Positions 1 to 54,934 of a stretch of 64,000 bases of DNA are shown here, piece by piece. The notes under the pieces were generated by a model. That model was given only the letters and a program-made list of their open reading frames with translations. It was not told where the DNA came from and ran no database searches. Location of the stretch: the NCBI GenBank assembly GCA_949130485.1, contig OX422185.1, positions 9,548,118-9,612,117 on the forward strand, given 5' to 3'. The position numbers and the translations under genes are program-made. Position 1 is the stretch's first letter. Each line of letters starts with the position of its first letter. The stretch comes from Agelas oroides (lineage: Eukaryota; Porifera; Demospongiae; Agelasida; Agelasidae).

Positions 1-1994
1 TAAGCGAAAATGTACTGATTTCACCATCTGCTAAGTCAGAATGTCACCTAGACTGTCTAAAAAACCATACGTGACTCTCACGTCTCCATAGTACTCACAA
101 AAAGGAGCACATGAACTGCTTAGCTACATTTGTCAGTTTGCTCTGTGAGAAAACTCTAAAAGGTTGCCAAGGATGTCTTTATATTTTGGCGGGGGGGGGG
201 GGGAATCACTTCATTGGTGAATGCATTAGAGGTATTGTGTGCTTGTACATATGCAGTGAACATGCTCAAATGCTTAAAACAAGCTCAACACTGGCTCTAG
301 TCAAGTACCTGTCCTTTTTTTTCTCACTTCTTCAATGTCATCACCATCTGGCAGACTGCATGCCTATCATTGACCGGGATACAACCATAAAAATGACACA
401 GTGATCAATCCCTACCATGACATAGACTTGCAGTAGCATGGTAAGTGCAACTCAGTTACAGATGCACCACTCAACCCAGGCGCTACCTTGTCACTATCAC
501 CAAAACCACCATCACCCTGAAAACAACAGCCCCACAAGCCACCATAAGTCTGCATCCCATACAGACATCAACATTAACCTGTGCCACCAGACTCCTTACC
601 TCTAGCGCCCACAACCTACCACAGACAAGCACTCCCAGAACTGCACTACCGCAAAACACCCTTCAGCCTGTCATACAGACCTGCCTCGTATACCCATTTA
701 CCCAGAAACTCTCCCTCATATTGCCAAGCTAGCTTCCACTTCAAGATGCAGGCATTTCAGGCACACACACACACACCACAATCCGACTTTCCACTTCCTT
801 GTCTGCCCTTAGAGCACACATGACCTTTGTGAGTCACTAGCCATATCTACCTGACATGTCCGTTCATCACTCTTTCGGTCACTTTGCCACTACCTACTAA
901 CACCCAAGATGGCTCCCAGCTTTTGAGGACACCATGTTGCCCTTCACCACCTTCCTAGCTTTTGCCCTGTCAGTAAAGTTCTGTCTCTGTGGTGTCTGAA
1001 ACCTCTCCCTGGAACATGGGTTTTCACAGACCCCCTACCAGATTCCTTCCAACCATGTTACCAAGTCACTCAAAGGTGCTTCCTGGACTTCTGGCTCTCA
1101 GTCACGCTATCTTTTCTCAATTTCATTGCCTACTCCACCTAGCCTAAAATAGCTGTGAGATGCATTGTGCTACTATACTAATAGCATTCTTTGATTTCGT
1201 CCAGAGTAGTAGTGCTACTGACTCTGCAACATGCCCATATACTCTTGAGAGGTACCGCATACTAATCCTAGCGTCCAAGACAGATCTCTTCTGGCAAAGG
1301 TCCAATCAAGCTAACTGCTCTGATCTTAGAAGTCTTAGTGATTTTTTAGGAAAACATGCCCCACATGCTCCTTGCTTTGCTGAGATATTTTAACTTGCAG
1401 GCCTGGGAATACTTCTGACTATGCTACATAGACTCCTGATCTTGTTTCTTGTGCAACATTACGACCTGAAACTAAACATGGCTTCAAGACAAATACATGT
1501 ACTGTCTTGTGAAAGAGTGGCCCAACCACAGCTTTTGCCTCACGTTTCTGCATAGGATTAAGTAAATACCCACCACACACTTGAATAGCTAGGGGTTTTT
1601 GCTTGCTTTGCTTCAGTATGGATCTAGCAATTTCACTCTAAAGTGAAATATGCTTGCTTGAATTTGCCATCCAGTAAGTGAAGAGCAAGTACATTGGACA
1701 GTAGTGGAATAGTGTTCCTAACTCTTAAAAGAGTCCTCGTTGCACTCAGGACTATAAATAGCAGTGGCATGCCTAACATGAAGGTCCAAATTGCGTCTCT
1801 AAGAGCTTAGCATGATTCTTGATGAATGACCCACGTTTGTTTACATAGTGGTAAAGGTCTTTTTCGTAGCTCACTAGGCCGAGAAATCAACCCATCTTGA
1901 TCCCCTCTTTTTTGGCAAACATTTAAGATGCTTTTGTACATCAAAGATTGGAGAAGTCTGTGTGATTAAACCTTACTTGCACAATCGATTTCAG
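1..1994. other. Region upstream of the first recognised exon, no gene identified
   Basis: I see no open frame here with a recognisable domain or a good splice context. A Pro/Thr-rich open stretch near 445-823 looks like chance readthrough of pyrimidine-rich DNA. A poly-G run lies near 189-203. The first recognised exon of the DEP-ankyrin gene opens in phase 0 with charged coiled-coil residues, so earlier exons must exist, either hidden here or before the window. Confidence 0.5.
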
Positions 1995-4900
1995 GAACAT
2001 GCCCGCATTCGCCATGAGACAGAGGCTGAGTTCCAAATGAAAATAGCTGAACTGGAAACTGAAAAAAAACGGTAAGCAGGCTGGAATGTGCAATGTACAG
2101 GCATAAGAATACAATTACAATACTAGATTACTATGTAGTTTAGAGTTAGAGTTAAACCACACCCCTAGATCCTCTAAAATGTAGTGTTCATGTTCAGTAC
2201 TACTTAAAATTTTAGCAAAACAAAGCTTTACCATACATGACACGTCTATCATTAATAGAATAGAAAGGCATGCCTGTACCACTTACGCACTAGAACCATA
2301 GTAGCACGATCAATACAACTAATGCTCATTTTCCATAACATGAATGATATTACACATCAGTCTCCAGAATGAAAGGGAAGAAGTGGAGAGACAGAAAGAA
2401 TACTTTTCCAAGCTGAGGGCAGATTTTCAGCCAGATGGGCAGAGGGTAAGAATCATAGCTTTAGAATATAGTGGAACCCACTATTAAATGCAAACACCAT
2501 GGGGACCACACTGCATGTCCGGAATGTGGAGGCGTCCGTATTTCGGTAGCTTCCGGTATATTTTCGGTAGGTGTGGCAATACATACTCATTCTGTTGAGC
2601 ACCAGAGGAGGTCAGACATTGCATGCTCCCATACATAACTTGGAGCTGGCCAAAGATAGCTTGCTGGTAGTTGTGTTATAATGTACAGAAGGTGATCCCA
2701 GCCTGATCCCCGAGCAAAACTCAACAGGATAGCAGAAAACACCAGTTTAGTGTGCTTAATTGGCTCAGGAATGTAATAAATATGTGCATTAAATTACATT
2801 CCTGAGCCAATTAAGCATACTGTTTCCTGCTATCCTGTTGACTTTTGCTCAGGGATCAGGCTGGGATCAGCTTCTGTGTGTCATAACAAAACTACCAGCA
2901 AGCTTTCATTGACCAGCTCCAAGATTTGATTTTTTATGTCCTACCTCCTCTGGTTGAGCGCTAAGACTAACCAAAGGCTAGTGCTATACGTACCAGTGTT
3001 ATTATAATATCCAGTTGTTAAATCAACCAGCAGTGCCAGACAATCTTGCATAAGAGGCATGCCAGCGTCCGCATTATCCAGTGAATTATGTGCAGTCCAG
3101 GTACTAGAAGGACCAATAAACCTGTCTGCTGTACAGAACAGCGAGGTGTCCGCATTAATTTCGGGGGTTATGTACAGCTGCTAATGGAAATACAATTCAT
3201 ACCTGAAAACGAGGTGTTTGCATTTCAGAGGAAGTTCAGAATAGCGAAGCTCCACTGTACAGGGTAAAACAGAAAGGTGGGACATGTGAAACCACTTGCT
3301 CAAATGCTGCAAAGTACAATATTATCTGTATGGACATTTTCAAGTTTGTTGTTGTTGTTGTTGTTGTTGTTTTTTTGGGGGGGGGAGGGGGGTTCAAGCC
3401 TAAGCGCAGGCGCCAGTTGACATAAGGTGGTTAGTAATCGTAGGTGTTAATTGCATTACCAGTTACTAACAGCGTAGGTCTTGGCACCCAAAAATCTGCA
3501 AGCTGGCTGACATGCACGCGTAATTTACTTCCCTGAGCAATCTGATTGGTGCGATAACATGCTGATACGCTTTATCATTTGGCCCCAGTTTTACCAGTGA
3601 AGGTGTCCAGACCCTATTTTTCGACAAGGCTGCAGGGTGCATGCAAAAAATTTGGTGTGGGGACGAGACTAGTCATGCAGGTGAAAATACAGGTGGGGTC
3701 TGGGCATGAGGCAAACTACAACCAGAGATGCAATAGTTAAAACGAAGCTACCGTAGCTCTGTCCAGACGCAGCAGAATGACCCCAATAGCTTCTTTTTTT
3801 TTACTTTAATCTTGGTGCTCATCATTCTGATTTGCCTTGGTAAGGTATCACTGAGCAAGGACCTCATTAATTATGTTTATTAATTCATTGATTCAGTGAT
3901 TGCATCACAATGTTTTTCTTCTTATTTGGCACTGTAATCATATTCATTCAGGCTGATGACTCCCCAGAAGAGCTGGAGCGAGGATCATGTGAGTTGCTGC
4001 AGCCATGGCATTGTTCAGGAGAGACAGAATCAATCCTGTTACACTAGAGCATGCTCTGTCTGCAAGTACCTCTTCTCTATGCTTGCCATCTCTTTAGCTC
4101 CAGTGAAGACCCCTTCCCACTCTGCAGCATATCCGAAGACAAATCCATTGCTGAGGGACGCTACATTACGTAAGGCATTAAGGAATTATTACTACATTGC
4201 ATTAGAATCACTAAGTGGATAACTGTATGTCTATAAGTTCTTGGACTCAGGTTCATGGAGCATAGATATAGCAATGTTTTGTAGTGTTCTGTTGTAACAT
4301 CTCATTAGCCTAAGTTCTGAAGAATGCTGTCCTACATAGCAATGTCCCTACACACATACAATGATTATGTCTGCACCATTATTCAGCTCCAGGGTCCCTT
4401 GTCCATCGTACCCCTCCTTCTGGTGCCTATATTCCCTCAGGCAACACCTCCTTCCCCAAACCTCCTAATAGAATAAGCAGTGCAGAGGTACTCCCACCAA
4501 GGTAACATTTTTGGTATTTTCTGATTTCAACTGAAACTGTAATGCACTTTGTTCTTAATCTGGTTTCTCAGAGCTTCACATATCAGTGCAGGCACTAGAC
4601 GGAGATCATACACTCCACCTCGTTCCGCAAATGGTGGAAAGTATGAGATGGTGAGAATGCCCTACTGTATTTCTAATAGAAGGCATGATCCATCTAGCAC
4701 AAAAAACTCATGCTTAGAACTCTTGCCTGATGTTGGAATAAAGAGAATTTAGATGTTAGTGAAAAGGCCGGCAACATTAACTAGCACTGATTGTTGTAGA
4801 CTCGTCGTCTCATCTTGGTGGGGTGTCTGGGAGGCTTGTTCAGTGGTAGGCGTTTCTGTACCGAACATTCTTTTGCTGGACATTCAGGTCTGTGCTGTGG

Positions 4901-7900
4901 CAACTGCTCGCGGTGAGTATATTAGTAGTTTGTGTGTGAACGCGGTCGGCAAGCCAGGTGTCCTGGGTTCGATTCCCGGTGACTGCCGGCCTTTTCACTT
5001 TCCTCTATTTTCACCTCATATAACATCTAAATTCTCTTTATTCCAACATGAGGCAAGAGTTCTAAGCATTTAGACTGAGAAAAACACTCAGCATGTGTTC
5101 TCCGGTTGACCCCTAACGGAGTTCTGACGGCACATGCTGAGTGACTGCCAGGTGTGCGACTGAGGCATTTCAGTCCCACCTGTGCAGTACATATAGAGGA
5201 TTGTGGGGCCTGGTGGTTGTCCAGTTGTCGTAGCTCAGTGGCAGAGCACTAGCTGCACAAGCCATGTGTCCTGGGTTCGATTCCTGGTGACTGCCCGCCT
5301 TTTCACTTTCCTCTATTTTCGCCTCATAATATCTAAATTCTCTTTCATTTTGAAAAAACTTCAGTTCTGAGAATATGAGGGTTAGCACAAATCAGTACTA
5401 CATAATGTTGGATTGATCAAATGCAGTGCAATACCGCGAATTAAGTCTCACATTTGCTATAGTCAGAGACAGGTGATCTATACAATTTTCAGAAGAAAGA
5501 GCTAGCCCATAAATATCCTACTTGAGCTTTGGGATATCCCATGGTTGCTGCAGCTACTCCATGTGCTAAGAGCTTCATTTGACAGCAAGAAATCTGAAAC
5601 AGAAAGCTGAACACCAGTAACTTGCTTTGTACTTGTATTTCAACATAAATTTTTGCATTTAAAAACACATGATCAAATCAAAGCCACGAAAATCAATTCA
5701 TGGATTTATGAGTGGATCTAACTCAAACCCATGCCCACTCAGATTATTAATTTGCTTGCTACTATTAGAATAAGAGTTGGATGTCTAATGTACTGCACAA
5801 TAACTCCATCAAAGGTATTGTGTTCACTTAAGCAATAGGAATTACTTCAATGATTACTACTCTACAGATCTGATACTCACATTTTGTTTGCCATTGTGCT
5901 TCCAGGTCTATCCCCTTGACAGTGTTGTGGTTGGAATGGCTAACCCCCTGAGCATCTCTGGGCTGAAAGCTAACATCCAGCTGGTATGTCAGTAAATACT
6001 TCCTTGATATCATCAGTTTGTGAAATACATTTACTCCTCATTGCTACATAGGATGGTGCATCTGCTTATGCCTTGAGGGAATATGCATCGGCATTAGCGC
6101 ATCCCAAGACTGGAATACCATGTCAAGTATGTTATAACATAAAGCAATTGACTGGTGTACATGGACTTTCCCACACTAAATGTAACAATTCTATCATCTA
6201 CTATTTACAATGAATTTTGTAAAAAAAGATAGGATGACAACAGCTTTAAAATAGACAAACAATGACAAATTCACAAAGATTTCTCACACACAAATCAGCG
6301 GCATTACAAGATATATCTCTGCGGTCTCAATTTTTCACAGGAAGTGTCCGGGATACATATATTCACTGGATCCACAGCCGTGAAATGGTTTATGAAATAC
6401 ATGGAAGGAGTCACTTCAGTGCAAGTTGCACGAGTAGGTGTTAACATTTCACTTCAGCTTCTAGCACTTGTACAAGTACAAACATACACACTCCTGTGCC
6501 AAAAATAATTAAATAACCACTGTTTCAGAATGTTGGTCAGAGGCTCATGGACCTTAATGTCTTCACAGAGATACAAGGTTAGCGTGACACATGTGTCCTG
6601 TTGTACTACTACTAAACATAAAACTACAGTCACAGTAAATTCTAACTGTGCCAGTTTACACATACTTGTTGGACATTTTGACAATTCTTTTAGTAGATGC
6701 TGCATTTTTTGTAACTAGACTGTCACATATAATTATTTGAGTGCAGACAGTTACTTGGTTAGAACTTTTTCAAGCCAAGTGAAGACAACCTGCAAGTGCT
6801 TGTCTATTTTCACCTAAACTGAAAAATCCAAGACTTGGATTTAGATGTACAAGGGCATATTTATAAATTGCCACAAAATCTGTTTCTCCTCAAAATTTAT
6901 TGCTTCGCTGTGTTGTTCTTTTTATGTGCACAGTGTAATAACAAAGTGTAATTGTGTGTGGACCATCTGAGCAAGTAGGTACCGGTAGATCTCTATATGG
7001 TGTTATCAATACATACTAAAGTGCTCCAATTATTGTTGAGCATGGTATCATTTCATTGAAGACCTTTGAATGTGAGTAGTTCAAACACAACAAACTTGTC
7101 CTTGTCTACCTATCACTTACATCTAATTGCACAATGATCTATCTACCAGAGGCTGATACAGATTCCAAGGCTTGCACTCGACAGTCATGGCGTGAATGTC
7201 ATATAAAGCAACTAGGCTTTCATTAATTAAGGAAAGGATATTGCTAACTATTGTGCCACATGCATTACTAATGAAACATCTTGGAAAATGAATTAAAAAT
7301 GATGTAAAGTTGTAGATGCCAACAAATTACTTAGCCTGCACTGAAAAAAAAACTCCTTTGATGATTGCAGGTGGCAACCAGTTCATTATCTCAGACACAG
7401 TTTACTATCAGTTTTGTGAGACAGCTCTCACATCAACCCTTCCAAAGGGACAATTTCATATCAACAGGTATGTATAACCAGCATCCTAATGTGAGTGCAT
7501 TTAAGAAGTTAACAAAATGTGCAATAACTAACGAGCTTTTTGTCATGAACAAATGTATTTCCATATCCATTTCAATCAGAGCTGTATCTTCACCACATCT
7601 GACCCCCTACTCTGCCAGTTCTTCTACAAGCCTACAGAGATATGGCACCACAGAATCAGTTTTTCAAAGAGGACAACTAGCATGTGGCAGTGGACACTCA
7701 AGGTAGGACATAACTTTTCTGTGTTAATACTAGACTTACACTCTTTAGACTACGAAACATGCAGTGAGCCATAAAACTTGCGTGTATGGTAACAAGCATT
7801 TCTCAATTAACTGGACATTATTATACTATGTAGATTAATCAACTTTGTCTCTCACCAGCACTTGGGAGTTTTCTTCCACTGCATCACTGAGTCAGTCTTT

Positions 7901-10900
7901 GGCCTCCCTTCATAATGGTGGAGATCTCCTTGAACACTTTGGACTGACAGACTATGCCCCATCTGAACTTCATATTGCAGCCATATATGGTGAGTGAACA
8001 TAATATTACGTAATGAAGAAAACTCTTGAATCATATGGGCGTATCAATCACTGGACTGGATTGCTGGACTGGACTGCTGGACTGGATTACTGGATTTAAT
8101 TTGTTCGTATCACATGACTTCCACCCAATCAAATGCACTGAATTTGGTTACATTAACTGCTTTATTATAAGCTGTACTTCATCATCCCACTGCATGCTAG
8201 TGAATGTACATGAGTACACACTGCACAAGCTACATGGACGGATGTGTGTACCATGAGTTCATTGTGTACACACAGTGAGCTCACAGCACCCTCCGACTGT
8301 GGCAACTATGTAACAGAACTAGTGACAAAAGGCACTTCACCAAAGAAAATTACTGTGCATGCAGAATGGTGGTGTCAAATGCTATAGTGGTTTGTGGTTA
8401 CCAGGCTATTACCCGTAGTTTTGTCGATCATAGTCATGCATGTAAAAAATATCCTTGGTCAGTGACAGGTCTTTAATAGACATAGTGCCAATTGGCCTAG
8501 CAAGCAGCCAATTTGCCTAGTAAGCAGCTAAAAGCAGCTAAATGGCATGGAGAGCGTGCAGCTCCATCTTTTAAGGTCTCTTCAGCACAAAACTCCCACA
8601 CTTACATGCCACGTCCTTTGTTTCACGGCAATCTAGTCAAATATGTGACCCAATTTACCTCGTCTGATTGGGTGGAAGTCATGTGGTACACACAATTTAA
8701 GTTCAAAGGTCATCCAGTGATGCAGTCCACAATCCAGTCCAGTGATATAGAACACGACCGGATCATATTAGCTTTGTGTTGAAACCCATCTTCTAAAAGG
8801 ATACCTTGTGCTCTAGATGCTTTAAATATGTGTTCTTTGCAATTTATTAACTCAAAGGTCTTGCAAACATGACATGGCTGAAGCCAGCATAGGCTGCATA
8901 TATGGCTGGGTCACCCTTAAAGATCTGATCGGCAGCTTCCAGTGTGTTGTTATTTGGTGAGAGTATGAGTTTCAGAATCATTAATTTTGGGGAAGTCCCA
9001 GGAGACAAGTCTAACCAATCTCATGTAGCTGGTCACACTACCCTACTCCATACAGGGATATTTTGCCATACAATTGACCAGTATTTAGACTTGTTCATCC
9101 ATCTGAATTGCACTTCGAGATGCTCCTCAGGCTAGTCCCAGATTGGTGCGACTTTCCTTACCACTGTTATTATTATTATTTATGTATAGCACACACCAAT
9201 AAATAGGTGTAGTAGGAGAATATATATGACTAGCTAACTAAAGAATACAAAGCAACTACAACAACAGCCAAAAAAAAACAATGAAATTTCAATCACAAGC
9301 AATACTATAAATCATATCTTCATAGTCCTCATCTAGATTAGCACAGGAGCGGAGGGAACGAATAACTGTAGCACACACACAATACTGATAGTCGTAACAC
9401 TTTTCATGACACAATCCAAACAAAGAGTTATAGCCAAAGAAAGAATAAGAGGTGCAGGAGGAATGACGAAAGATTGGGATAGACGGACAGTAGGGCTGCA
9501 GACAACAGAGAAGTAGTGCGCTGGTAGACAAGGTTGTATAGACTGTCCAGATTTGCCACGCAGTGAACTATACATGTATGACTTTGGGTAGGCGCCAAAT
9601 CCTTCTAAGAACCTTGTTGAAGGCAACCTCAATGTGATCGAGGGCAGGACAGGAAAGTGACCAGAGTGCTGAACCATAGAGGGGAAGACAAATAAGTCTG
9701 AAACAGATGGGTCAGAATAACAGGACCAACATGGGGGAAGAAGGCTAATAAACAATTAGCCTTCTTAACCATGTCACGCAACTAGTGATTACCTGGGCAT
9801 CACTCAGATCATAATGAGTAAGATGCCCCAGGTGTGTGACCGTGTCAACAAAGACGAGTTGTTGACCACAAAACATGAAATGAGCTCTACAGGAAGAGGA
9901 CAGAGACCATGAAAAACAAATTGAGCGTGCATGGAAGAAGTGTGCCTAAACATAGGTAGCCCTTTTTAAAAATTAATACCTTTTCTACCTGCAGGTGACC
10001 GTAGCAAGCTAAAGCTGCTGGCAAACCAAGGGTCAAATACAGACCGCCTGGATGCAGTTTGCCATACACCACTAATGTATGCTGTAATGGGCAAGCATTC
10101 CAAGGTATGAATCTATATTATGAGAGAAGAAAGCATATTTTTATCTCTTAGGCTACCTTTCAGGTATTATAGGAGGAACATCATCACTTATATCATAGAA
10201 ACCTGACTATGACCACTTCAGTTATTAAATGGAGGGGAATTCCCCAGCCAGTAACACCGCTGTAGGACCCAATACTTGTCCTTGTTAACCCCAAGACGCC
10301 CAGCCATTCAGACGTCATGCATAAGGCGCAACACAATGCACGCACTCACTTTGCTGCTTGTTCCAGGAGTAGTTGGTGCACTAGCTTGGGCAGTTAAGTA
10401 TGTGCACCATACTTCCCAAACTGAAAGCACCTCTCTTTTCACCTTTAGAGATGATCTGCACGCATCCTTCTATCAGGAGCGTTATGGGTTGGAAAGGGGC
10501 TTTAGTTGCATCTAGTCAGCCCCATGTGGAGGTTGCTGCAGCCACTTGTGACTTGTGGCTTGATACCCTCCCTGTACCCCGAGCTAGGGTGTACACGTCT
10601 GCCAGTTTCATGGCCTGTTGGAGAAACTCTTGCTTCCTCTCTTTGAGCCACATTGTAAAATCTTCTAGCACCCCTGCGAGGAACTGATCTGGGACCATAG
10701 GTTCGTACACTGGCAGTTTTCTATCTTACATCCATCAGGTAATTCTAAAAAGTGGTCAACGAGCCGGTCTCCTCAATTCTTGTAAAACCCTTCTGGCATT
10801 TTACAGTCAGAGTGGAAAAGATGCTGCTTGGACTCTTCATTCACATAGTAGCAATGCAAAATCGCTTTCTTTACGTCCTTGTAGGTCACCGCACTGTTCA

Positions 10901-13900
10901 AGCTGCAATAGGCTGCCATAGGCTGCCATGGCTTTTCCAGTCAGTAAACCAGCCAGCTGAATGGCCCATACCTTCACTGGCCATCCCTGCTGCTTTGCAA
11001 TCCACTCAAAGTGTACAGGGAAATGCACAATGTCATCATCCAGTCCCAGTTTTTCAGGGTTGGGTTTGGTAAATGGACCACTGTCCTCCTCATGTCATAT
11101 ACTGCGCCCTCACCTCTACCATCTCCTTCTGATGCTGCATGAGATCTTCTTTCTATTGCTCCACCAGAGCTAGCAGTATCTTCTGCTGCTCCTGTTGAGC
11201 CCTCTGCTGTCACATGAACAACTCAAGCAAAGTCTTCATCCAACCCTCCACTACCTGTATTCAATCACACTACTTTTCTCGCCTCTTTCACTTTGTCTTT
11301 TTGACATGGTATTTCTGAATGTGTCCTACTGACAAAGTTTGGTATTCAGCACAAATCCCACATTGCTGCCACCAATTGTAGCGTAGTTGATGTGCCAAGC
11401 GCTGGTTAGCAAAATATTAACCGCTCATGCGGGTGTTATTTCGTTCTCAACTGACACACATATGCAAGCAAAATGATATACAAAAATGAAACACAGTGTA
11501 AGAAATCACCTACAACCAAAACAATTTGTGCAATATCCACCTACGGTCGCAAAGGTAGCAAATACTGAAAACTTCATTACATAAATATTACCTATTGAAA
11601 TGATCTAGAAGGAAAAAATCTCCAAGCTTTACAATAAAATAAGTCAACTCAAAGTAATCAAAAACTCAAGTACATAAAATATTATGTCTACTTCACTACA
11701 GTATCTCAGTATACGTATATCACAGTAAATTGTTTTGCCAAATTATTTCAAGCACCTGGGAATGAAGGTAGACTAACATCACAAAGCTGAATCAGCTCTA
11801 TGAGATGTTAGTAACTAGTGCCCCACAAACAAAAATGAGAAACACTCACTCTCTGCACCTGCTGATATTTACAGTAAAGCTTTTATTCAAAGTTCGTTTA
11901 CATTCATAGTGAAGTTTTTACTCAAAAAGAAAAACTTTAAAGCCAACAAATCTTGCTAACTTGAAGTTTAATGCTTGCTAATTAGTGGCTATACTTATCT
12001 AAACACTTTTGACCCTAAAAGAAATACAAATCAATATTTTTGGCAATCCTGTCGCCTACCTGCATTATCAAATTTCACATCACACTGTACACATTTAACA
12101 TTACTTATGTTCTTCTAAATCGCTTCCTCTAAATGGTTTCATCATTACAGGATTTCTCTTTCAGCAATGGGACTGACATATTCAGAAAAGGTGTTTAGGC
12201 CTGTTACTTGAAACTAAGAGTTTATAGCTTTCTATGGAGCTCTACACCTGATGAACATCAGTCCTTACAGACTTACAGCAAACTTGAATCATGGAGTTGG
12301 ACAAATTATTGTTGCGTCCTGTACAGTATCTCACTCAAACGTTGAGTTTGAGTTGTAGAATGTAGGGAACATTGACAAAACCTTGCATATCCCAATGGAC
12401 ACATGCTACATACATGGTACTAGGCTGATGTATTGTCACGTGTATAATTTTATAGAGAGACCTACTCGTATGTTTAATAAGCTGTACAACTGATGAGGGT
12501 ACAAGTGATTACAGTAATATTTTATGCCAAAAGAGTGGTAGTGTGAATTACTAGGGGCCTACTAGGTAGAAAGTATACATTGGTACCATCAATACTGTCC
12601 TACTACACCATTATCTACAGTAGTACAATGCATAGCAACTTTATCCCTTATGTACAGTGTTGCCTGCAACTCATACGTCTTGGTGCTGATGTAAATGCCG
12701 CTAACCAGGCAGGACAGACTCCTCTTCTTTTGGCAAGCATTGCAGATCAAAGTGAAATTATTAAACTGCTTTTGAAGTGAGTTACAGTCAATGGTAATCC
12801 TACATAAACACGTTGCTACAGAAAACTGTGAAGACATAAATTTTCACTCCTGTTGGAATATCTAAATGTCTTTGACAGTTAAAAATTCCATATACCCAAG
12901 TATGTTTGCTATTTTTACCATACAGGAATGGTGCACAAACTCACTTCATTGACCAACAAGGACAAACAGCATTTCACATTGCAGCAAAGAGTCAGAGTCA
13001 TAGGTAAAGCAGCCGTAGCATAAAACTCTTAGCATCATTCAGTTGAAGCCTTGTTGGGTTGTGCCCTAGATATCTCTTGACTAAATTTATTCCAAGGAAT
13101 CTACTTAGGAATCTGCGCAATCCTGAAATTGTGCAGAGCTTTTTCAGAATTCTAGTAATGTAGTGCAATTTTGTGCCAATCTCAGAGCTTTTTCAGAATT
13201 CTAGTAATGTAGCGCAATTTTGTGCCAATCTCAGAGCTTTTTCAGAATTCTAGTAATGTAGCGCAATTTTGTGCCAATCTCAAGATTGCACAATTTGTCT
13301 ACTGGATTGAAGTTTGTCACAGTCTGATGTCAAAGTTATCCAAACAAGATGTATATTGAACAAGTGAAAGGAAGTTAAACTTTTCTTTTAAAAGAAGTGT
13401 ACCAGGTATAAACATTCATATACAATTCTCCTTTATCAGATGCCTTGAGTATTTGTGCAAGTATGCTGCAGCATTACATGGAATCAATGAGAGGGACCAT
13501 GCTTACCACACTCCACTACATGTTGCAGTGCTGAACAACTTGCAAGGAAACACAAAGTGCTTACTGATGGCAAAGGTTTGTTTCATTCATTAGCACCACC
13601 AACCAGAATGCACTGTACAACTTATAGTGGAGTACTTTCAAGGAAGAGGCCTTTGACTAATTCTACGGCTAACAATTAAACAGATCATTATGTACACGGT
13701 TAATGCCATGGCTATATTTTGAACCATACATACCAGTAGCACTAAGCCTGTTGTAAATAAAGCTATAAATGAAAGCAATATAGATTAACTCCAGATAATA
13801 GGACTGGGTTTTGCAAGACTAGGGACAAAACTGTCTGTAGCTACATGCAGTAATAGTTGTGTTGAGTGGGGGAGAAACAAAACTGACTTGCACATCATTG

Positions 13901-16900
13901 TTCTTGTACATGTAGGTGTAGGATTTTCTGCACATATATTTAGTATGGAGGCAAATAAGTTGGGATTTTAAGTCATTCGGGGGGCTGGGGCAGTTATAGT
14001 TGATGGGTGGGGTATTTTTAGCTAAATGAGCGGGGCAGTTACAGCTAAATGGGTTACAGGTATTTTGTGTATGCTAAAAATCACTTCATTGCACTTCCCT
14101 TACAATCCAAAGGTCAATCAAGTATATACCAACATAGAGAGTAAGAGAGGTCCTCTACTATCTATGATACTAGTTTTGGCCATCAATGCTCACTACCATT
14201 CTACATTGCTTTGTCAAGGGTCCAAGCTCAGAAATAACTGTTCGAAGGTATTTCAAAGACAATGCTTACTTGGAGTTTCTGAGCTTTGCACACCAGGACC
14301 AATAATCTCGTTAACATTGGAGCTTTTAGGTGCGTTGACGACTTGTCAACATTCAAGTACTATTCTTGGTTGCTTTGACAACTTGTCGACAAAGCCTTAC
14401 AAAGATGATATTTTTAAGACTTAGCACACTTCACGCAGGAGGGGAGACACCCACTCCCGCTCCCCATTATGCTGATCAAAAGAACAAGCTTGAGGCCTTT
14501 TCTTGTAGTTTCTACCCCAAACGCTGAAGTTTCGAACGTTTGCAAAGCGAAAAACATACTGCTCCTGGTTCAAAATGACGTCCACAAAATGCGATCGGTG
14601 GGTGACCCCTCCCCCACTCTGTCTACCAGGTAGACACTGACGTCATCCACGTGATAAAATGGACCAGATCTTCCCCCTCTGTTTTGCATACTGCAAGTGA
14701 TCAAAAACTGGACGGTGAGAAGGCCTGGGAACGAGGCTATTAAAACTGCACATGGAGCTTAGGTATGTCACTCCACTATCTATGGTGGATACCAGGCTCC
14801 TTTTTTACCACACCCACCAAGAACATAGGTATGAGGCTACACAAATACATACCAACTTGTTTGTTTTGCAAGTTCAGGGATGATCACGTGTTAGTTCTTC
14901 ATTGAAGTCTGTATCACCTCTCAATCAAGATGTTAGTCTCAGTACCAGACCCTCGCACACGGAGGAGGAGGAGGGTCTGGTAAACTTGCATGCATAAACT
15001 CTTTATGGAATATGGCCTCCTTACAGGCTTCCTAAGCAATAATTGAAGGTGTTGATTGGGTGCAAATATGAATGTCCTCAATTAGCTATCGTAGACTTTG
15101 TTGTTGCCAGTAAATTCTATAACGAAGCAACCATTTGATGGTACCTTGGAGAGCCACTGCTACTTTTGGCAGACAATCATGTTAAACAGTGAAGTAGCAG
15201 GGCAGCCCAGAACTGTGGTGTTGGCTACCGAAATAAGCATAACTTATATCCATTGCTGTAAATGCTTCAGCTGAAGCATTTACAGCAATGGATATAAGCG
15301 TGAGGGCATCCAGAGGGCTTACAACAACTATGATGGACTTACGTCTACCTCCGTGACTTCCATGTGCCAAAATTCACCGATGAACACAGACTACCATAGC
15401 GGAGGGACTTTCACAGTTCCACTGCCCGGGTAGTGAAACCAAAGACTTCTAGCCCTTTCATAACAGCTTTCCAGCTGCTTGAGATTTGCTGAGGATATCT
15501 AAGCTTGGTGAACAATGCCAATGGTTGCTTCGATTCTTGTATCAATCGCTGGTCCATCATTCAAATTCACCATGTTGTTATTACAAAGCAATCCTCATCA
15601 TGGCTGATTTTTCAAGAACCAAACAAGGAGCAAGATCTCTACATTACAACGGTTTCCAGTACACTATCAACAGGAGAGGGAGAGATGCCAGACTTATTGG
15701 AGATCCATTGATCACTCATGTCAGGGAAGAGCAACAATATATAACAGAAAAGCAACAGAAGTCGGCAGCAGGTGGGACAGTGAGAAACACAAGGAAGAAG
15801 TACCGCACCAAACAAAGAGACTTGCCAAAATAGGAGAAAAGTTTGAAAGGGGGGACTATACACTAGAAGAGTATATAGATGGTATTAGCAAGTCGATACA
15901 TTTTAGTACGTAGTGTGTACTCTGCCATCATTCATTTTCTTTATTCTGACATCATTCTTCCGAAAAGCAAATGTAGACGAATTGAGACTAGACGAAATGG
16001 GAGTAGACGAAACAGTACAAAAAACTTAGTAGACAAAACTGGAGTAGACGAAATTCACACGAACACATGTCTTCGTGGGCAGAAATGTATAACACAGTCA
16101 TCAGCCGATTAGATTCATCCCACCAAATTAATATATTCTGCGGACTTCAAATTTTTCTGTACACTAGTTTACCAGACCCTCCTCCTTCTCCGTGTGCGAG
16201 GGTCTGGTTCCGAGACTATCAAGATGTGTGTTGTATGTAATAGTGCTGCTGCTTCTCCCACTCCTCCCTTTGCTTTTTTCCACTAGGTAATGTACTTTAA
16301 ATTATGTAATGATATGGTAGTATATAGCTGTGAATGGTAGTTACAAAAGGCAGACATAATGAAAGCAAAGTGATAGGAACACACTAGTACGCTGGTTGTA
16401 TAATAAAAACATTAATGAAGGCCTGATTACATAAAGTGCCACCACATTTTACCAATCTCCAATCGTATCTCTTTGTTGGAATGTTACTTCAGTTACACAA
16501 ATTAATGCTATTTTTCTATAGGCAGATTTGGGTGCCAGTGATGAGAATGGACTGACAGCACTTCATTATGCAGTTTCTCAGAACAGCCTTTCTTGTGTTC
16601 ACACCATTACAGAAATAGCTGTGAGTTAGGCATTTACATAAGCAGTAGCATTAATGTTTTTGTTTCACTTATACCACATGATGGGAATCTAATATGTACT
16701 TCACCAGCAGAGCATCCAATTACGCCTGCAGAATGATTTACTAATTTTAACATGCTTTACATGCTATGTATGTTATGCATTCATATTATCTTACTAACTG
16801 ACAATATTCAATGCAGCCTAACGATATTAATCTTGTGGATACATCTGGGCAGAGTGCACTTCATCTGGCTTGCCAAAAAGACTCTGTGCAGTTGGTTGAT

Positions 16901-19900
16901 ACCCTACTTTCAAAACCAAGGTACTGATAGCATTGGCACTTCATGTACATTATGCAGTAGCAGACAGAAAAATGTAAAACCCAGGATTTTTGATACAGAT
17001 GTTTGCCCCACATATGTACAACAAAGAATTTTGCTGATAATATAGTGTAATTTTGTGATATGATCACTAGGACATTTGGTGATTTTGTGTCCTTGTAGAT
17101 ACTAAGTTGCCTTGGCTATGCAGTCACCTAGTTCCCCTATTTTAACTCTCATGCACTAACAACTAAAGGTCTCCATAGAAGGCATACTTCACACTGCTTT
17201 TCTATTGCACAGCTACCCAATAGGCTGCATGGATGCATAAATGTTACTAGTACAAGCAAGAGCAAAGCTACTTCCATTCATCCATAAAATACATTGTTTA
17301 TTACTGTAGCTGTGACATAAATCTCAGAGATCAAAGGGGACTTACACCTCTTCACATCAGTGTGCTTTGCAACAGCCCTGAAACCACTAAAGTACTGGTA
17401 CAAAGAGGTGCAAGTGTGACCATCAAGGATAACCAAGGCAAAACAGCACTTCATTATTGCATGGAGAGGGTAAGTGATAATTCATTTTTCAGGGCTTTAA
17501 CATTAGTTTAGATGAAAATAATAGTATGGGACAAATATTGAGTGCCAGGATGGCAGTAATTATACCCCAAGTGGAGAGAAAAATACCATTTTGCAACCAT
17601 CCATATAAGAAACTCAATTTTAGTCTGCAGGTATTACTTGTAATGACTACATTATCGTTAAAGTATAGAAAAGTAAAAGCTAAATCCTGCTTGGCCATGG
17701 CTACCATTGAAGTGCTTGACCACTCGGCATTGATTAGTTGTCTGCCTTAGGGCTTGAAACGAAGATACTAACAAATCCTTCCATCTGTGGTATCAAATCA
17801 GTCCTCCTGGGCTAGGAGAGGAAGGTCAAAATAACTTGCAAAATGAAACCACTTTCATTGCATTGGCCAAACTAACTGCTTTATCACGAAGGTATATCTA
17901 TTTGCTAAATCTGAGAAGCTACATTTTTTTGCTACTGCGTTATAACCAAATCGCAATACGTGGAAACACGAACACCTACTTTCCCATGCTACGTATGTAG
18001 GTAAGTGTAAATCTGTTTTTACCTAGAAGTTGTTGTTGTTGTTTTTTTTTGAGGCTAACCGCACCCCAAGTGGAAAGAAAACGGTGTACAATTTTCAAAA
18101 TTGTACTTGCACATCCAAGCATGTACAGAAGCCAGACTATAGAAGTCTGGATGGTGAAGCCACTCAGTGCAGTTGGCAAACACTGTGGTTACATGCTGAA
18201 TACAGAGTTTACACAAGTCCTGCAACTATTACTACTGCTACTACTGAACTTGTGTGGCCTTTACTTTCTTCCCTCAGCTTTTTTTCTTTCTACTTGAGGT
18301 GTAAATTCTATAAAATTGTATGCAGAAAAAGTGCACAGGATACACACAAAAAATATAAGTACTAAATGAGGATGTGACGAGCCTCTCAGGGAGTGTATTC
18401 CATATGCTTGTAGCATGTGGTACAAATGAACTGTGGAAAGTATTTGTTCAACCAAAGAAATTGTCTATCTGATCGTTGGGAAACACTGGGTCTCTGTGAG
18501 ATGATGTCCGGAGGAAAGTAGCACAGGCCATGTACAATCTTATACAATGTACACATGCAGGATTGTAGCCATCTGGATTCCAGGGAGGGAATATTGACCA
18601 TATTCAGCAGATCCTGGTAACCAGTATCCCACTTTCTAGTTACCACCTTCATGGCAAATTTCTCCACATCTCCAATCGTTTTTACTTGTTTACGTGTGGA
18701 GGGATTCCAAACTGTGCTCGCATATTCCATTGTCAGGTACAGCTGCAATAGGGTATCACTATTTGCCCTGTTGAATCTCCTGTAAAGAAGGCCAATTATG
18801 TTCCGGCCTTTGGCCTGTCATTCAATATGCTTACCGAATGACGTATCGCTAGAGAGCAGGAGGCCAAGATACTTGAAGCAGTCCACTTTCTCTAGCAACT
18901 TGGAGTTAGATAGTTGGAATTCACCCAGTCCTCGATCATTAGGATGTCAAGCTGCAAGCATTGATAGTCTTCCTGGCTCTGAATTGGACGGAACAGTAAC
19001 AGGTCATCTGCATAGAGCACAACCTGATCACCATCCAACAAGGGCAGTCATGCCAGATCGTCAATATACATTAAAGAGAGTAGCAGGCCCAGAACTGACC
19101 CCTGCAGTACTCCAGACAACACAGTTGTGTGCTGAGATTCTTCACCATTAACCACAACTTTCTGTTCCCTACATGTAAGATAGTCAGTGATCCAAGAAAG
19201 TATTGGGTTACCCATTCAAGTCCTTTTAATCTATTCTAGTAGAACCTCATGTCGAATTGAATCGACAGCTTTTCTTAGTTCGAAAAAGACAGCACCAATC
19301 TCTCCACCACCCTGAAGTATACTAAACCAGTTGTGTGTAGTTGTGAGTAGGCCAGTTACGGTTGATTTTCTGGGTAAGAACCTCCACTGTGATTCTGCCA
19401 GAGGGTGAAAAGTTTGAAGGTGAATTGTGATTATACCATACATGTAGCACTCGAGAAATTTGCTTAGCACAGTGAGTACAGAGACTGGCCTATAGCTATC
19501 TGGTGTACATGCAGGAGAAATTTTTGGAACAGGCACAACAGTAGCATTCTTGCTGAAAACCTTGCATACAGGCCTAGATGCTTTCAAAACGTCTAAAGAA
19601 GATACAGTCCACAAACTTCCTCACAGTAGATCGTCAATACTTGAAACCTCACAGGTGCTTGCAATGGGGACGTTACTTGGAGAAAGAAGTGGGAAGCTGG
19701 ATTAAAACGAGTGGAAAAGGAGTTCAACATATCTGATTTTTGCTACCCTATCCCCATCATGATTGTTTTTCTTAGTCTGATTAACACAGGTATCTGTGTC
19801 TTAAATCTTGCATCCATATTTGCATCAAGTTGTATTGTGTAACAGACATCCTCTCTTACTATTTTACTCCATGCATGCATGCACAAGCAGGTTTAAGCCA

Positions 19901-20427
19901 TCACTCTGTGGTGTGTGTGCACGTGTGTGTGTGTATGGTTCGACTCTGATTCAACTACACTTTCGTTTAACTTCAACACAATTATAATTACAGAAGAATG
20001 GTTTACACCTCTCATAACTTACATATTAAGTGAAAAATTGAATATACAAGAGCAAAAACTTCAACTACAGAAACGTTGGTAACTATCACAAAATGAGGGA
20101 AAGATTAGATTTACAATGCTGCAAACGGCCAACTCCAGACAGAGACTTGAAGTAGAAGCAGGATGTGACAAAATAAAATCTTTGGCACAGGCCACAGACA
20201 TGTCTGCAATCAGAATGTAGAACAGAAAAGCAGCCATATTTGCAGTAACCAAATGCTGCTTTTGTAAAGCAAAAATAACCACCATTTTTGCCCTACATAA
20301 TTATTGTTGTATTCACACAGACGTAATGCTTGCTGACCAGTGACCACTTCTATGTCACTAAACGGTGTTATCCTTTCCTCAACAGGGTTTTGCAGACTGT
20401 GCTAAAGCAATTCAAACTTCATCATGA
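1995..20427 (+). CDS. Coiled-coil, DEP domain and ankyrin repeat protein, 21 exons, 5' end missing
   Basis: Exons: 1995-2071, 2361-2445, 3952-3988, 4098-4169, 4387-4501, 4572-4650, 5906-5983, 6052-6126, 6341-6433, 6529-6577, 7371-7467, 7580-7702, 7859-7989, 9995-10104, 12658-12776, 12926-13003, 13440-13575, 16522-16620, 16817-16920, 17310-17469, 20386-20427. All borders are GT..AG and all phases agree, giving about 652 residues. Residues 1-55 are an E/K/R-rich coiled coil; 56-180 are Ser/Pro-rich; about 206-270 are a DEP domain; 287-355 are low complexity; 361-652 are eight full ankyrin repeats and a partial ninth. DEP domains usually act in membrane or receptor signalling and ankyrin repeats bind partners, so a signalling adaptor is likely (inference). 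I recognise no named orthologue; the ankyrin block also recalls IkB/NF-kB-type arrays. No initiator Met or promoter is seen. Confidence 0.88.
2446..3951 (+). other. Intron with a palindromic element and a (GTT)n tract
   Basis: This intron lies between coiled-coil exon two and the next short exon. It holds a long fold-back element (2595-2961), a (GTT)n microsatellite near 3346-3370 running into T and G tracts, and otherwise AT-rich DNA in which I see nothing else. Confidence 0.7.
2595..2961. repeat. Long palindromic MITE-like element
   Basis: The two halves are near-complete reverse complements. The left half starts near TTGAGCACCAGAGGAGGT and the right half ends near ACCTCCTCTGGTTGAGCG. Matching inner blocks include CTTGGAGCTGG / CCAGCTCCAAG, AGCCTGATCCC and TTGGCTCAGGAATGTAA on both arms. 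The centre is near 2785. No reading frame is present. The shape fits a fold-back or MITE; I cannot assign a superfamily. Confidence 0.75.
4710..5069 (+). repeat. tRNA-related SINE copy with inverted flanks
   Basis: A B-box-like GGTTCGATTCC lies at 4966-4976, followed by a pyrimidine-rich tail at 4990-5045. The tail and beyond (4984-5069) are repeated in reverse at 4710-4773, so the unit can fold back; the left arm lacks about 22 bases of the right. An A box is not clear in this copy. It is best read as a decayed tRNA-derived SINE joined to an inverted half copy. Confidence 0.55.
5220..5345 (+). repeat. tRNA-derived SINE, second copy
   Basis: The A box TAGCTCAGTGG is at 5231-5241 and the B box GGTTCGATTCC at 5274-5284. 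Between GTTGTCG and TGACTGC the acceptor and T arms can pair imperfectly. The downstream tail (CTTTTCACTTTCCTCTATTT and on) is nearly identical to the copy at 4990-5045. The shared tail and weak cloverleaf argue for a SINE, not a working tRNA gene. It sits in the intron 4651-5905. Confidence 0.65.
6341..7467 (+). other. DEP-domain coding exons of the ankyrin gene
   Basis: Three exons (6341-6433, 6529-6577, 7371-7467) encode the DEP core. The first carries the helix with FTGSTAVKWFMKY, the family's pattern of Phe-x-Gly then a Trp-hydrophobic pair. The second gives the NVGQRLMDLNVF helix. The third closes the fold with the strand FIISDTVYYQF, matching the usual closing aromatic residues. The introns are phase 0 and phase 1. 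The match is by motif; an HMM search would settle it. Confidence 0.82.
6578..7370 (+). other. Intron, no internal element recognised
   Basis: An AT-rich intron that splits the DEP domain between its second and third exons. I see no repeat, open frame or RNA-like structure that I can support. Confidence 0.6.
8046..8751. repeat. Inverted-repeat DNA element in intron
   Basis: The left arm (8046-8150) and right arm (8640-8751) are reverse complements: both have CACTGGACTGGATTG at the outer side and ACATGACTTCCACCCAATCA at the inner side. The left arm also has a short direct repeat of CTGGACTGGA. The interior has no convincing coding frame. It resembles a non-autonomous DNA transposon. Confidence 0.65.
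9140..9960 (-). mobile_element. Decayed LINE 3' end on the minus strand
   Basis: The minus strand encodes, in broken frames, the C-terminal region after the reverse transcriptase of a non-LTR element: VKKANCLLAF, then SLYGSALWSLSCPALDHIE and FNKVLRRIWRLPKV, then IRSLRSC-LDEDYEDMI. The 3' side ends in an ATT/TTA-rich tail near 9165-9180 on the plus strand. At least two frameshifts and one stop are present, and no catalytic region remains. The pattern recalls RTE/Ingi-like LINE tails; clade uncertain. Confidence 0.6.
10500..11213 (-). pseudogene. LTR-retrotransposon gag (SCAN-like) remnant
   Basis: Read on the minus strand in broken frames, the block near 11060-10890 gives DDDIVHFPVHFEWIAK and WAIQLAGLLTGKAMAAYGSL. 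It continues as VKKAILHCYYVNEES and, near 10690-10560, QFLAGVLEDFTMWLKERK. This is the capsid/SCAN-like region typical of gypsy-type gag. In-frame stops and frameshifts break it. No protease, RT or integrase follows before 10276, so the copy is truncated. It is an intronic fossil. Confidence 0.72.
11358..11375 (-). promoter_or_regulatory. Primer-binding site of the LTR element
   Basis: On the minus strand this reads TGGTGGCAGCAATGTGGG, which starts with the TGG expected for pairing to a tRNA 3' CCA. It lies just inside a TACA end at 11377-11380 and upstream of the gag remnant, as expected for an LTR retrotransposon in this orientation. Confidence 0.6.
13134..13280. repeat. Three tandem 49-bp repeats
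   Basis: Three head-to-tail copies of a 49-bp unit starting CAGAGCTTTTTCAGAATTCT; the first differs from the others at a single position (TAGTGC versus TAGCGC). The near identity suggests a recent expansion. It lies in the intron 13004-13439. Confidence 0.9.
15243..15298. repeat. Perfect 56-bp palindrome
   Basis: Two 28-bp arms without spacer, starting CTTATATCCATTGCTG, with the symmetry centre CAG|CTG between 15270 and 15271. It lies inside the MULE element. The bases just outside do not extend the symmetry. Confidence 0.95.
15600..15900 (+). pseudogene. MULE transposase remnant: FLYWCH-like start fused to C-terminus
   Basis: The plus-strand frame gives FSRTKQGARSLHYNGFQYTI then NRRGRDARL, which resembles the first half of a FLYWCH zinc-binding domain found at the N-terminus of many MULE transposases. 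It then jumps to THVREEQQYITEKQQKSAAG. After a frameshift near 15825 it continues as LAKIGEKFERGDYTLEEYID, the usual MULE C-terminal tail. The zinc ligands and DDE core are missing, consistent with internal deletion. Confidence 0.6.
17470..20385 (+). other. Last intron of the ankyrin gene, with an antisense LINE
   Basis: A 2.9-kb intron holding a minus-strand LINE (about 18361-19760). Short blocks resembling CCCCAAGTGGARAGAAA occur near 17567 and 18064, with an inverted one near 18285, possibly ends of small DNA elements. Otherwise nothing is recognised. Confidence 0.6.
18361..19760 (-). mobile_element. Decayed CR1-like LINE reverse transcriptase (copy E)
   Basis: On the minus strand, 19614-19231 encodes the RT fingers (SYRPVSVLTVLSKFLECYMY, ESQWRFLPRKSTVTGLL, FFELRKAVDSIRHEVLLE). 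The middle carries QGSVLG, LYADDLLLFRP and FKYLGLLLS in shifted frames, and 18748-18386 carries the C-terminus (LYLTMEYASTVWNPSTRK, GYQDLLNMVNIPSLESR). Key positions have decayed, for example KAFDS to KAVDS. No endonuclease is seen. The C-terminal wording is closest to copy D at the right end of the window, so the two look like one family. Confidence 0.78.
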
Positions 20428-21219
20428 TTTTGTGTAGACCAAAATATAAACTGTGTTTTATTTCTATTTGTATACACCTATTTCCCGTTGATATTAACTT
20501 CTTTTGTGCAATTAAGTGTTTTCTTGCTTGCATTCATAATTACATTAACTTTTGTAGTTCTTTAGAATGAGTGGTTACCTAACAATGTATTGAGTGACAT
20601 CTGATGTATGCAACATTGCATTAATTGATTCTTTGTGTATTATTAATTATTTATAGTACACCTTAGTGATCACAGAGCTTGATCTAGATTTTTACACAAT
20701 GTCATATTAAACCACAATCAGCATTGCAAACAAGCAGAAAGGTGTATCACTTTGAAGTATATTGGAACTTGCATGTACTATAGACCAATGTTCAGTATAC
20801 TGCAATTTGATGGTGGCATTACTGAATCAATTCCAGCATGTTAACATTTTTGAAAACAGCTTCTCAGGAATGGCTTGAGCTAGAAATGACCAATGCATAT
20901 CAATGTCCCAATGGCTGTTTTTTGAAAGAAAAAAAAAGTGATTGTGGGTTCTCCAAACTACTGTCAGGCTTACTGGTACTGGTCCAAACTACTAAGCAAT
21001 TCCCTCTAATACCTGCAGATTTGCAAATTTGGCTCAGTATAAGTAGGCCTCCACAAGTTTTTCATGCACAAGTCTATATGAGTCTTTCCAGCATTTACTC
21101 GTAGATAAACTGGCCTCCACAAGCCTTTCTCGCAATCGCATGTAGCTAAACTGGCCTCTACGAGTCTTTTCAGCCCTCATTTGTAGCTAAGCAAGGTGTG
21201 TGCACACAAGATCAATTTT
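20428..21219. other. 3' flank of the ankyrin gene
   Basis: AT-rich DNA after the stop codon. It presumably contains the 3' UTR and polyadenylation site; I see no canonical AATAAA placed clearly enough to call. Around 21050-21190 there are loose repeats of CTCCACAAG-type words (GCCTCCACAAGTCTTTC and similar). No gene is recognised. Confidence 0.5.
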
Positions 21220-21830
21220 CATGAGATCAACTCCCACGTGGTCAACTCTTACAAGATCAACTTTTTATGAAATCAACTGCTATGAGATCAACTTCAACAA
21301 AATCAACTCAATGCCTGAAATCAACTTTTTGAGCTATTAGTGCATGCCAAGGCTTGACAGGTATTGATGGGTCAGTTGACAGGCTTTGAGTAGTGTGTTA
21401 GTGTGTTGTCAAGCCTCACCCAAACATCTTTGCATGGATTGAATTCATCCAAAGAGAGGAGGCAGTGACCAAAGCCAAGATTCAGAGCTTCAGGTCTGGA
21501 GCTACAGCTCAGCCACGGAGACGCCATATGAAGGAGGAGAAGAGGATACAGACTCTTTTTGACTGCTTCAACGCAGGTGACATATCCCTCAATGAATACC
21601 TATATAGGAGCCATCAAGCACCTTACTGAACTTTAGTTAGAATTTAGTGGATCAATGTAATGCCTTTTCATCAGTTTTGTAAGTTGATTTCGTAAGAGTT
21701 GATTTTATAGAAGTTGATCTCATAGCAGTTGATTTCGTAAGAGTTGATTTTATAGAAGTTGATCTCATAGCAGTTGATTTCATAAAAAGTCGATCTTGTA
21801 AGAGCTGACCACGTGGGAGTTGATCTCATG
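21220..21830. mobile_element. Short MULE with inverted, tandem-repeat ends
   Basis: The ends are reverse complements: 21220-21301 (CATGAGATCAACTCCCACGT and on) and about 21668-21830. Both consist of 15- to 20-bp direct repeats of the type GATCAACT...; the right arm holds a 45-bp block twice in tandem. The interior encodes the C-terminus of a MULE transposase. I could not find a clean target duplication. It is a compact internal-deletion derivative. Confidence 0.7.
21408..21629 (+). pseudogene. MULE transposase C-terminal fragment
   Basis: An open frame of 73 codons ends in a stop at 21627-21629. It reads HPNIFAWIEFIQREEAVTK, then RRRHMKEEKRIQTLFDCF and AGDISLNEYL. The HPN-(W/F)-x-F-I start followed by a basic stretch and a short acidic helix is the standard tail of MULE transposases. 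The DDE catalytic core is absent. Confidence 0.65.
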
Positions 21831-22400
21831 TAATCCTAAGCAAGCCTCCACAAGTATTTCACGAGTCTATATGGGTCTTTACAGGACTTGTTTGTAGTTA
21901 ATAAGCAGGGTTCCCGAGCCTTTCACGCACTGGTTTGTCTCTAAACAGGGCTCTGCGAATCATTATTGCATTTGAACTTCAAACGTTCGCCGGTAACGTG
22001 ACAAGTTAAGTTGATTTTTTGCGCTCTCGTCTTTCACGAACATTCTCGCCGTATCCCTGCAGGTATCTATTTGCCTTGGGTGCCATTGAATACATCTCTC
22101 TTGGTACAACAAGTGGATACTAAATTTGTCGTATTTTCATATCTCTAGCAGTAGTTGGAGTATTTTCGCACCTCACTCGACGGATCATCACTATCAACCA
22201 ATTGTCAAGAGACCCGAACCCTGTACAATCGCCACAGTTGAAGTGAAGTGCAAGCAAAGTGAAAAAGTATCAAAACACAGGACAAGCTGCAACTGCAAAA
22301 CAAGTTAACTACTTATCCGTAACTTAGGTGTGAAATTCTTCGTTCGTCAACTGAGCTCAAGGACAGTATATAGTAACGAGCCCCTCCCTCCCGCATGTGA
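21831..22400. other. Unassigned DNA between the short MULE and the LINE
   Basis: No confident gene. A 60-codon open frame at 22126-22308 ends in a Cys-containing stretch (SCNCKTS) that faintly recalls CXC domains, but nothing else supports it. Confidence 0.4.
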
Positions 22401-53983: not shown

Positions 53984-54062
53984 AGTATTGTCATCAGCCC
54001 ACTATTGTCATCACCAATTCACAAACAAACAGCAATGACACCTCTTTTTTAGAGGTTCCCCA

Positions 54063-54780
54063 TTGTTAGCCAGCCACAAGCACCATTTTGCGGGTGTAAG
54101 CCTTCATGACCAGTGTTCTCTCACCTCACAACAGACTACAACTTCTAGTAACTCTACCTTCTCCATTGTCTATTTTAATGCTAGGAGCCTCCTCCACAAA
54201 ATTGACTACCTACGTCTAATATGTATGACTAGCCGACCTGACATTGTATGCATAGTTGAATCTTGGATGGAAAATGAGATTTCCGATGCTGAAATAGCAA
54301 TCAATGGATACGATGTAGTCAGAGCCGATAGAAATGGACATGGAGGCGGCGTCCTTATTTACATAAACAAAACTTTTATACATACAGTTATTTTTGGAGG
54401 TGACCATGAACTGGAACTTCTCATTGTGTCAGTAAGTAACCGTTTTGGTAGGTGTGTTTGTTTAGGTGTTTTGTATCGCCCACCAGATGCCGGTCATCTT
54501 ATTTTAGATTGTGTCAGCAGTGTTTTGTGTAGACTAGATAGCAACCTATTTTCAAATTTTGTTCTCATAGGAGATTTTAATATAGATTTTAATAATACTA
54601 ACCATTATTTCTATAATCAACTCACCATCATTTTCACTCACGCAAGTCGTACCCTCACCTACTCGAGTAACCCCACAAAGTTGCACTCTTATCGATCTCG
54701 CACTTGTATCAGAACTCTCCTGTGTCTACTCATGTGACACTATACCACCTCTAGCAAACTCTGATCATTATGGGGTTCTC
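54063..54780 (+). pseudogene. LINE APE-type endonuclease
   Basis: The frame gives VYFNARSLLHKIDYL, DIVCIVESWM, RNGHGGGVLIYI, LGVLYRPP and LIGDFNIDF. Then, after a frameshift near 54640, TQVVPSPTRVTPQSCTLIDL and LANSDHYGVL. All landmark residues of the family (Asn, Glu, the GDFN Asp/Asn and the SDH Asp/His) are present. It would nick target DNA to prime reverse transcription. The frameshift disables it. Confidence 0.8.
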
Positions 54781-54934
54781 CTACAGTTAAGAACACGTAA
54801 AGAACGATGCAACAGAAATGTAACACGCAGGAAAGTGTGGAGGTACGACTTGGCAGACTATACCGGAGCCTGTAATCAGTTGGACGACCTATGACTGGAA
54901 GATCTGCTAGTACCAAATGACATTAATTTAAAGT

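Follow-up and report, generated by a model that had tools for sequence, protein, structure and literature searches.

A DEP domain and a nine-repeat, possibly inversin-related ankyrin array in one predicted sponge protein

Of the described proteins that most resemble the one analyzed here, Dishevelled (DVL) is not known to have ankyrin repeats, and DEPDC5 (GATOR1) continues after its DEP domain with a C-terminal domain of its own. Inversin (INVS/NPHP2) has further repeats after the ninth; neither it nor Diversin (ANKRD6) is known to have a DEP domain, and ANKRD55, for which neither a DEP domain nor an N-terminal coil is known, carries a long C-terminal tail after its repeats. Dishevelled is reported to carry a DEP domain and to belong to the same PCP pathway as inversin and Diego/Diversin, an ankyrin protein for which six repeats are reported (PMC3175158); PMC11414264 states which domains Dsh and Dgo contain. 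Inversin is described as carrying a C-terminal ciliary-targeting region, and data are reported to suggest that NEK8 and NPHP3 bind to its N-terminal ankyrin region (PMC11974183). It is also reported to antagonize canonical Wnt signaling through Dvl, and normal canonical Wnt signaling is reported from the kidneys of inversin-null mice (both PMC8623546).

The gene described here was found on the plus strand of a 64,000-nucleotide stretch of the genome of the sponge Agelas oroides (hereafter, the window). A preliminary description had proposed 21 exons with matching phases, and these could be rebuilt: the spliced model of the plus strand (1995..20427) comprises 21 exons separated by 20 introns, all of them GT..AG, and reads in a single frame through 652 codons to a TGA, with 27 and 39 stops in the two alternative frames (Table 1). 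The donors carry G at +5 in 17 of 20 cases (background 0.21), a purine at +3 in 18 (0.57), A at +4 in 12 (0.26) and G at -1 in 14 (0.20), the background being computed over the window's first 21,990 bases, which contain 1266 GTs; a pyrimidine precedes the AG at position -3 in all 21 acceptors, and the G+C content is 0.46 in exons versus 0.40 in introns. Because the exon boundaries were set with the earlier claim of 21 exons in view, the open frame by itself does not amount to a blind test; independent support for the gene model comes from the fact that the domains continue unbroken over the exon junctions. No Pfam match falls on exons 1-7 or 12, which were modeled solely from the open frame and the splice sites. 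Over the part within the window, the gene is intact.

Table 1. Features of the gene and its 3' flank (positions in the window)
Feature	Position	Strand	Exons or remarks
Charged helical segment, weak coiled coil	1995..2427	+	exon 1 (1995-2071), most of exon 2 (2361-2445)
First linker	2428..5983	+	end of exon 2, exons 3-6, exon 7
Exons 3-6	3952-3988, 4098-4169, 4387-4501, 4572-4650	+	first linker
Exon 7	5906-5983	+	first linker
DEP domain	6052..7467	+	exons 8-11 (6052-6126, 6341-6433, 6529-6577, 7371-7467)
Second linker	7580..7955	+	exon 12 and first part of exon 13
Nine ankyrin repeats	7956..20424	+	exons 13-21
Exons 13-17	7859-7989, 9995-10104, 12658-12776, 12926-13003, 13440-13575	+	ankyrin array (exon 13 also linker)
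Exons 18-21	16522-16620, 16817-16920, 17310-17469, 20386-20427	+	ankyrin array
Last intron with antisense retroelement remnant	17470..20385	+	
Stop codon TGA	20425..20427	+	spliced frame
Poly(A)-signal-like AATATA	20443		downstream of stop
Poly(A)-signal-like ATTAAA	20706		downstream of stop

Several repeats and retroelement stretches lie in the introns and elsewhere in the window. The last intron contains, on the minus strand, a weak RVT_1 match (19231-19620; 23.0 bits against a cut-off of 29.6) and a piece assigned to the retroelement by eye that has no Pfam match (18386-18817); two longer retroelement stretches are present on the plus strand at 30722-32170 (reverse transcriptase, 113.7 bits) and 54039-56929 (an endonuclease domain of 29.1 bits, then a reverse transcriptase of 117.4 bits). 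A tRNA-Val (CAC)-like sequence in the sixth intron (5224-5296, plus strand) was called by both ARAGORN and Rfam (33.6 bits), and it may be a tRNA-derived repeat because a 94% copy of its 3' part together with the following bases (5258-5328) is present at 4950-5020. The second intron holds an inverted repeat (2634-2741 and 2821-2928) with 108-base arms, 87% complementary and 79 bases apart, which looks like a foldback element, and the intron preceding exon 17 holds three copies of a unit with a 49-base period that are at least 98% identical (13134-13282). Just 3' of the gene, runs of a 15-base unit (about AGTTGATYTYRTARN) lie in inverted orientation at 21211-21309 and 21682-21833, their longest arms being 93 bases long and 95% complementary.

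Position 1995 is not the start of the gene. Exon 1 opens in phase 0 behind a splice acceptor, which means that exons are missing to the left, and the true start probably lies in unrecognized exons within 1..1994 or outside the window. The architecture discussed below therefore covers the visible part of the protein, the N-terminus of which lies beyond the model. An alternative is that the model represents the C-terminal portion of something larger, whose function is set by a more N-terminal part such as a motor, kinase or GEF; in line with this possibility, exon 1 not only begins at that acceptor but reads as a charged helix, and the open frame preceding it (from 1878) contains no methionine. 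On the other side, a methionine codon at 2037, within exon 1, could possibly be the start codon, although the base at -3 is C. We consider a larger protein of this kind a possibility with the balance against it, and it would be compatible with the explanation as an inversin-type scaffold developed below.

The N-terminal segment had been described as a coiled coil. The charged helical segment is there, with six heptads in a row that place F, L, L, V, F and F at one core position and mostly charged residues at the other; as a coiled coil it is plausible but weak, given that 925 of 20,000 shuffled versions show an equally good heptad pattern. In the part of the first linker encoded by exons 3-6, P, S, T and G together make up 47 of 105 residues, and an RRR motif is present.

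The DEP domain claimed in the preliminary description is borne out by the Pfam domain search, in which PF00610 matches residues 214-268 (6362-7414, introns counted) with 37.6 bits, above the curated cut-off of 32.7. The closest solved structure is that of DEPDC5 (E of 2e-8 for a two-copy chain and about 0.007 for chains with one copy), with which an HPxTG stretch and the residues that follow it align; the second closest is DVL2 (E of 0.2), and the eight distinct PDB sequences matching at E up to 10 consist of five of DEPDC5 and three that hold DVL2. The DEP domain of Dishevelled is considered to contact lipids via a strongly basic face. Such a face is not evident here, and protein docking appears likelier than direct lipid binding because the domain is about neutral, with 6 K+R versus 7 D+E over 86 residues. 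Relatives of the DEP region were also sought by pattern in viral contigs (9 matches, none of them a relative by tblastn) and in contigs of prokaryote genomes (30 matches, none a relative), which is what one would anticipate for a gene from an animal.

The ankyrin array fills the remainder of the protein. Five Pfam ankyrin models match the spliced protein, led by PF12796 (Ank_2; 158.3 bits against a cut-off of 27.3) and including PF00023 (142 bits over 7 stretches), and apart from these and the DEP domain no further family exceeds its cut-off; the ankyrin models of KRIT1 and LRRK2 were rejected because their scores fell below their Pfam cut-offs. Where eight to nine repeats had been claimed, we counted nine by eye (residues 360-652), the last of which closes the protein. 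The last exon comprises just 42 bases and follows a 2.9-kb intron; this small exon is arguably real because it completes the ninth repeat (...HYCMERGFADCAKAIQ).

We compared the order of the repeats with that in other arrays by scoring local alignments against permutations of the query repeat order, on the premise that plain ankyrin similarity should not depend on order; the sequences of human inversin, human ANKRD55, Diversin and IkBa used here were approximate versions and not database copies. With the approximate inversin, the alignment runs in register from repeat 1 to repeat 9 and scores 371 against a permutation mean of 255 (excess 116), and the approximate ANKRD55, again with nine repeats in order, scores 304 against 211 (excess 93), none of 1000 permutations scoring as high in either case. 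The signal is weak for the approximate Diversin (253 versus 218, excess 35; 28 of 1000 permutations as high). For parts of ankyrin-1 (259 versus 243, excess 16; 153 of 1000) and NOMPC (211 versus 203, excess 8; 295 of 1000), and for the approximate IkBa (153 versus 144, excess 9; 271 of 1000), permuted orders score as high more often, as they do for residues 311-517 of the approximate inversin taken alone (172 versus 176, excess -4; 567 of 1000). Random errors introduced into the approximate inversin weakened the signal, with z values of 3.3 to 5.9 at 10% errors, -0.3 to 6.2 at 20% and -1.3 to 3.7 at 30%, with ten trials each. Compared repeat by repeat with the 15 repeats of the approximate inversin, four of the nine repeats have their positional counterpart as the best match and six have it among the top three; in the other five it is not the best, and for repeat 3 it ranks 9th.

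One alternative is that the protein serves as a general adaptor whose ankyrin array is an ordinary one, its likeness to inversin being due to chance or to the ankyrin consensus only. Strong convergence is typical of ankyrin repeats, the PDB contains 255 distinct sequences that match the array at E 1e-15, and in BLASTP a consensus array scores higher than the approximate inversin (156 versus 145 bits). The consensus also yields some order effect (396 versus 372, excess 24, z 3.2; 1 of 300 permutations as high), which probably reflects a better fit of the two shorter end repeats in terminal positions. Against an ordinary array, the excess of 24 is far below that obtained with the approximate inversin, and the values for the approximate inversin and ANKRD55 stand well apart from those of 8 to 24 for ankyrin-1, NOMPC, the approximate IkBa and the consensus, and from that of the approximate Diversin. 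We consider an ordinary array rather unlikely. No inversin or ANKRD55 chain is among the PDB matches (40 sequences with E no higher than 1e-45 in one search, 8 with E no higher than 1e-50 in another). Overall, judging by these comparisons with approximate sequences, the repeat order follows that of inversin and ANKRD55, so that the ankyrin half does not seem a generic one, and common descent of the array with inversin repeats 1-9 is strongly suggested; because the inversin and ANKRD55 sequences were approximate, this kinship is a strong lead and not a test.

The possibility that a DEP gene and a neighboring ankyrin gene were wrongly joined, for which the long introns of the ankyrin half (2005, 2553, 2946 and 2916 bases) and the low complexity of exon 12 could be cited, is highly improbable, and we rejected two separate genes on the grounds that exon 13 runs from the last part of the linker into repeat 1, of which it encodes the first 12 residues, and that exons 11, 12 and 13 contain no methionine, so that a separate ankyrin gene would require an unseen first exon; in addition, the introns flanking exon 12 measure merely 112 and 156 bases, and the frame is open throughout. 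Exon 12 itself (7580-7702, 123 bp) has the same phase at both ends and hence could be skipped in frame.

The predicted protein thus presents, in this order, a possible coiled coil, two linkers flanking a DEP domain, and nine ankyrin repeats. Pfam contains no family that covers the 652 residues over their whole length, NCBIfam has nothing near a cut-off for the first 360 residues, and no named family combining DEP and ankyrin was found in the literature on DEP-ankyrin proteins within a narrow, phrase-based scope. Some oomycete kinases are reported to have DEP domains and some ankyrin domains, and the combination was not seen among the kinases as they are described there (PMC3019232). The earlier statement that no standard family has this order fits all these sources, with the qualification that the ankyrin half resembles the approximate inversin and ANKRD55. 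Provisionally, then, and with novelty judged against Pfam, NCBIfam, the PDB and a narrow literature, these are familiar parts in an unfamiliar combination.

Repeats 1-9 of the approximate inversin line up, in the same order, with the nine repeats of the sponge protein, but the latter stops directly after repeat 9, without further repeats or a ciliary-targeting region, and identity as inversin was rejected because no sequence follows that repeat. The nine repeats of the approximate ANKRD55 also line up in order, and Diversin is likewise an ankyrin protein, with the weaker order signal given above. Dishevelled shares the DEP domain, with DVL2 as the second-best solved structure, but its PDZ domain, which precedes the DEP domain, is missing from the 652 residues (Pfam, E up to 1), and identity as Dishevelled was rejected accordingly; the DIX domain of Dishevelled is N-terminal and would fall beyond the modeled part. 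DEPDC5, the best structural match of the DEP domain, with the HPxTG stretch in common, differs in what comes after this domain, which here is a linker and ankyrin repeats; its identity with the sponge protein was rejected for that reason, and no other DEPDC5 domains are among the Pfam matches in the visible 652 residues, the N-terminus lying beyond the model.

Judging by its parts, the designation of the protein as an adaptor is reasonable. We lean, if not strongly, toward a single gene encoding a cytoplasmic scaffold with a helix, two linkers (the first of them flexible), a DEP domain and a nine-repeat array of the inversin/ANKRD55 type. Most likely, the role of such a scaffold would be to link a DEP-docked complex to inversin-type partners: the N-terminal helix might hold copies of the protein together, the DEP domain could dock on a receptor or a membrane-bound complex, and the ankyrin array may hold a partner, for example, a NEK8/NPHP3-like or Wnt/PCP protein. 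One chain would then unite two functions that in vertebrates are split between Dishevelled, with its DEP domain, and inversin/Diversin, with their ankyrin repeats, all in the same Wnt/PCP pathway, where a protein of this two-module kind would have a place. A further proposal, which we regard as tentative and rather doubtful, is that this is an early animal protein, a natural fusion of a DEP domain and an inversin-type ankyrin array, two kinds of module that otherwise act on separate proteins, Dishevelled and inversin/Diversin, in Wnt/PCP and ciliary signaling.

If the array is not related to that of inversin, the gene would be another instance of domains combined in a signaling adaptor of animals. 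If it truly is inversin-related, the fusion hints that inversin-type ankyrin scaffolds and DEP complexes share one pathway, and the gene would provide a testable entry into the origin of the inversin family.
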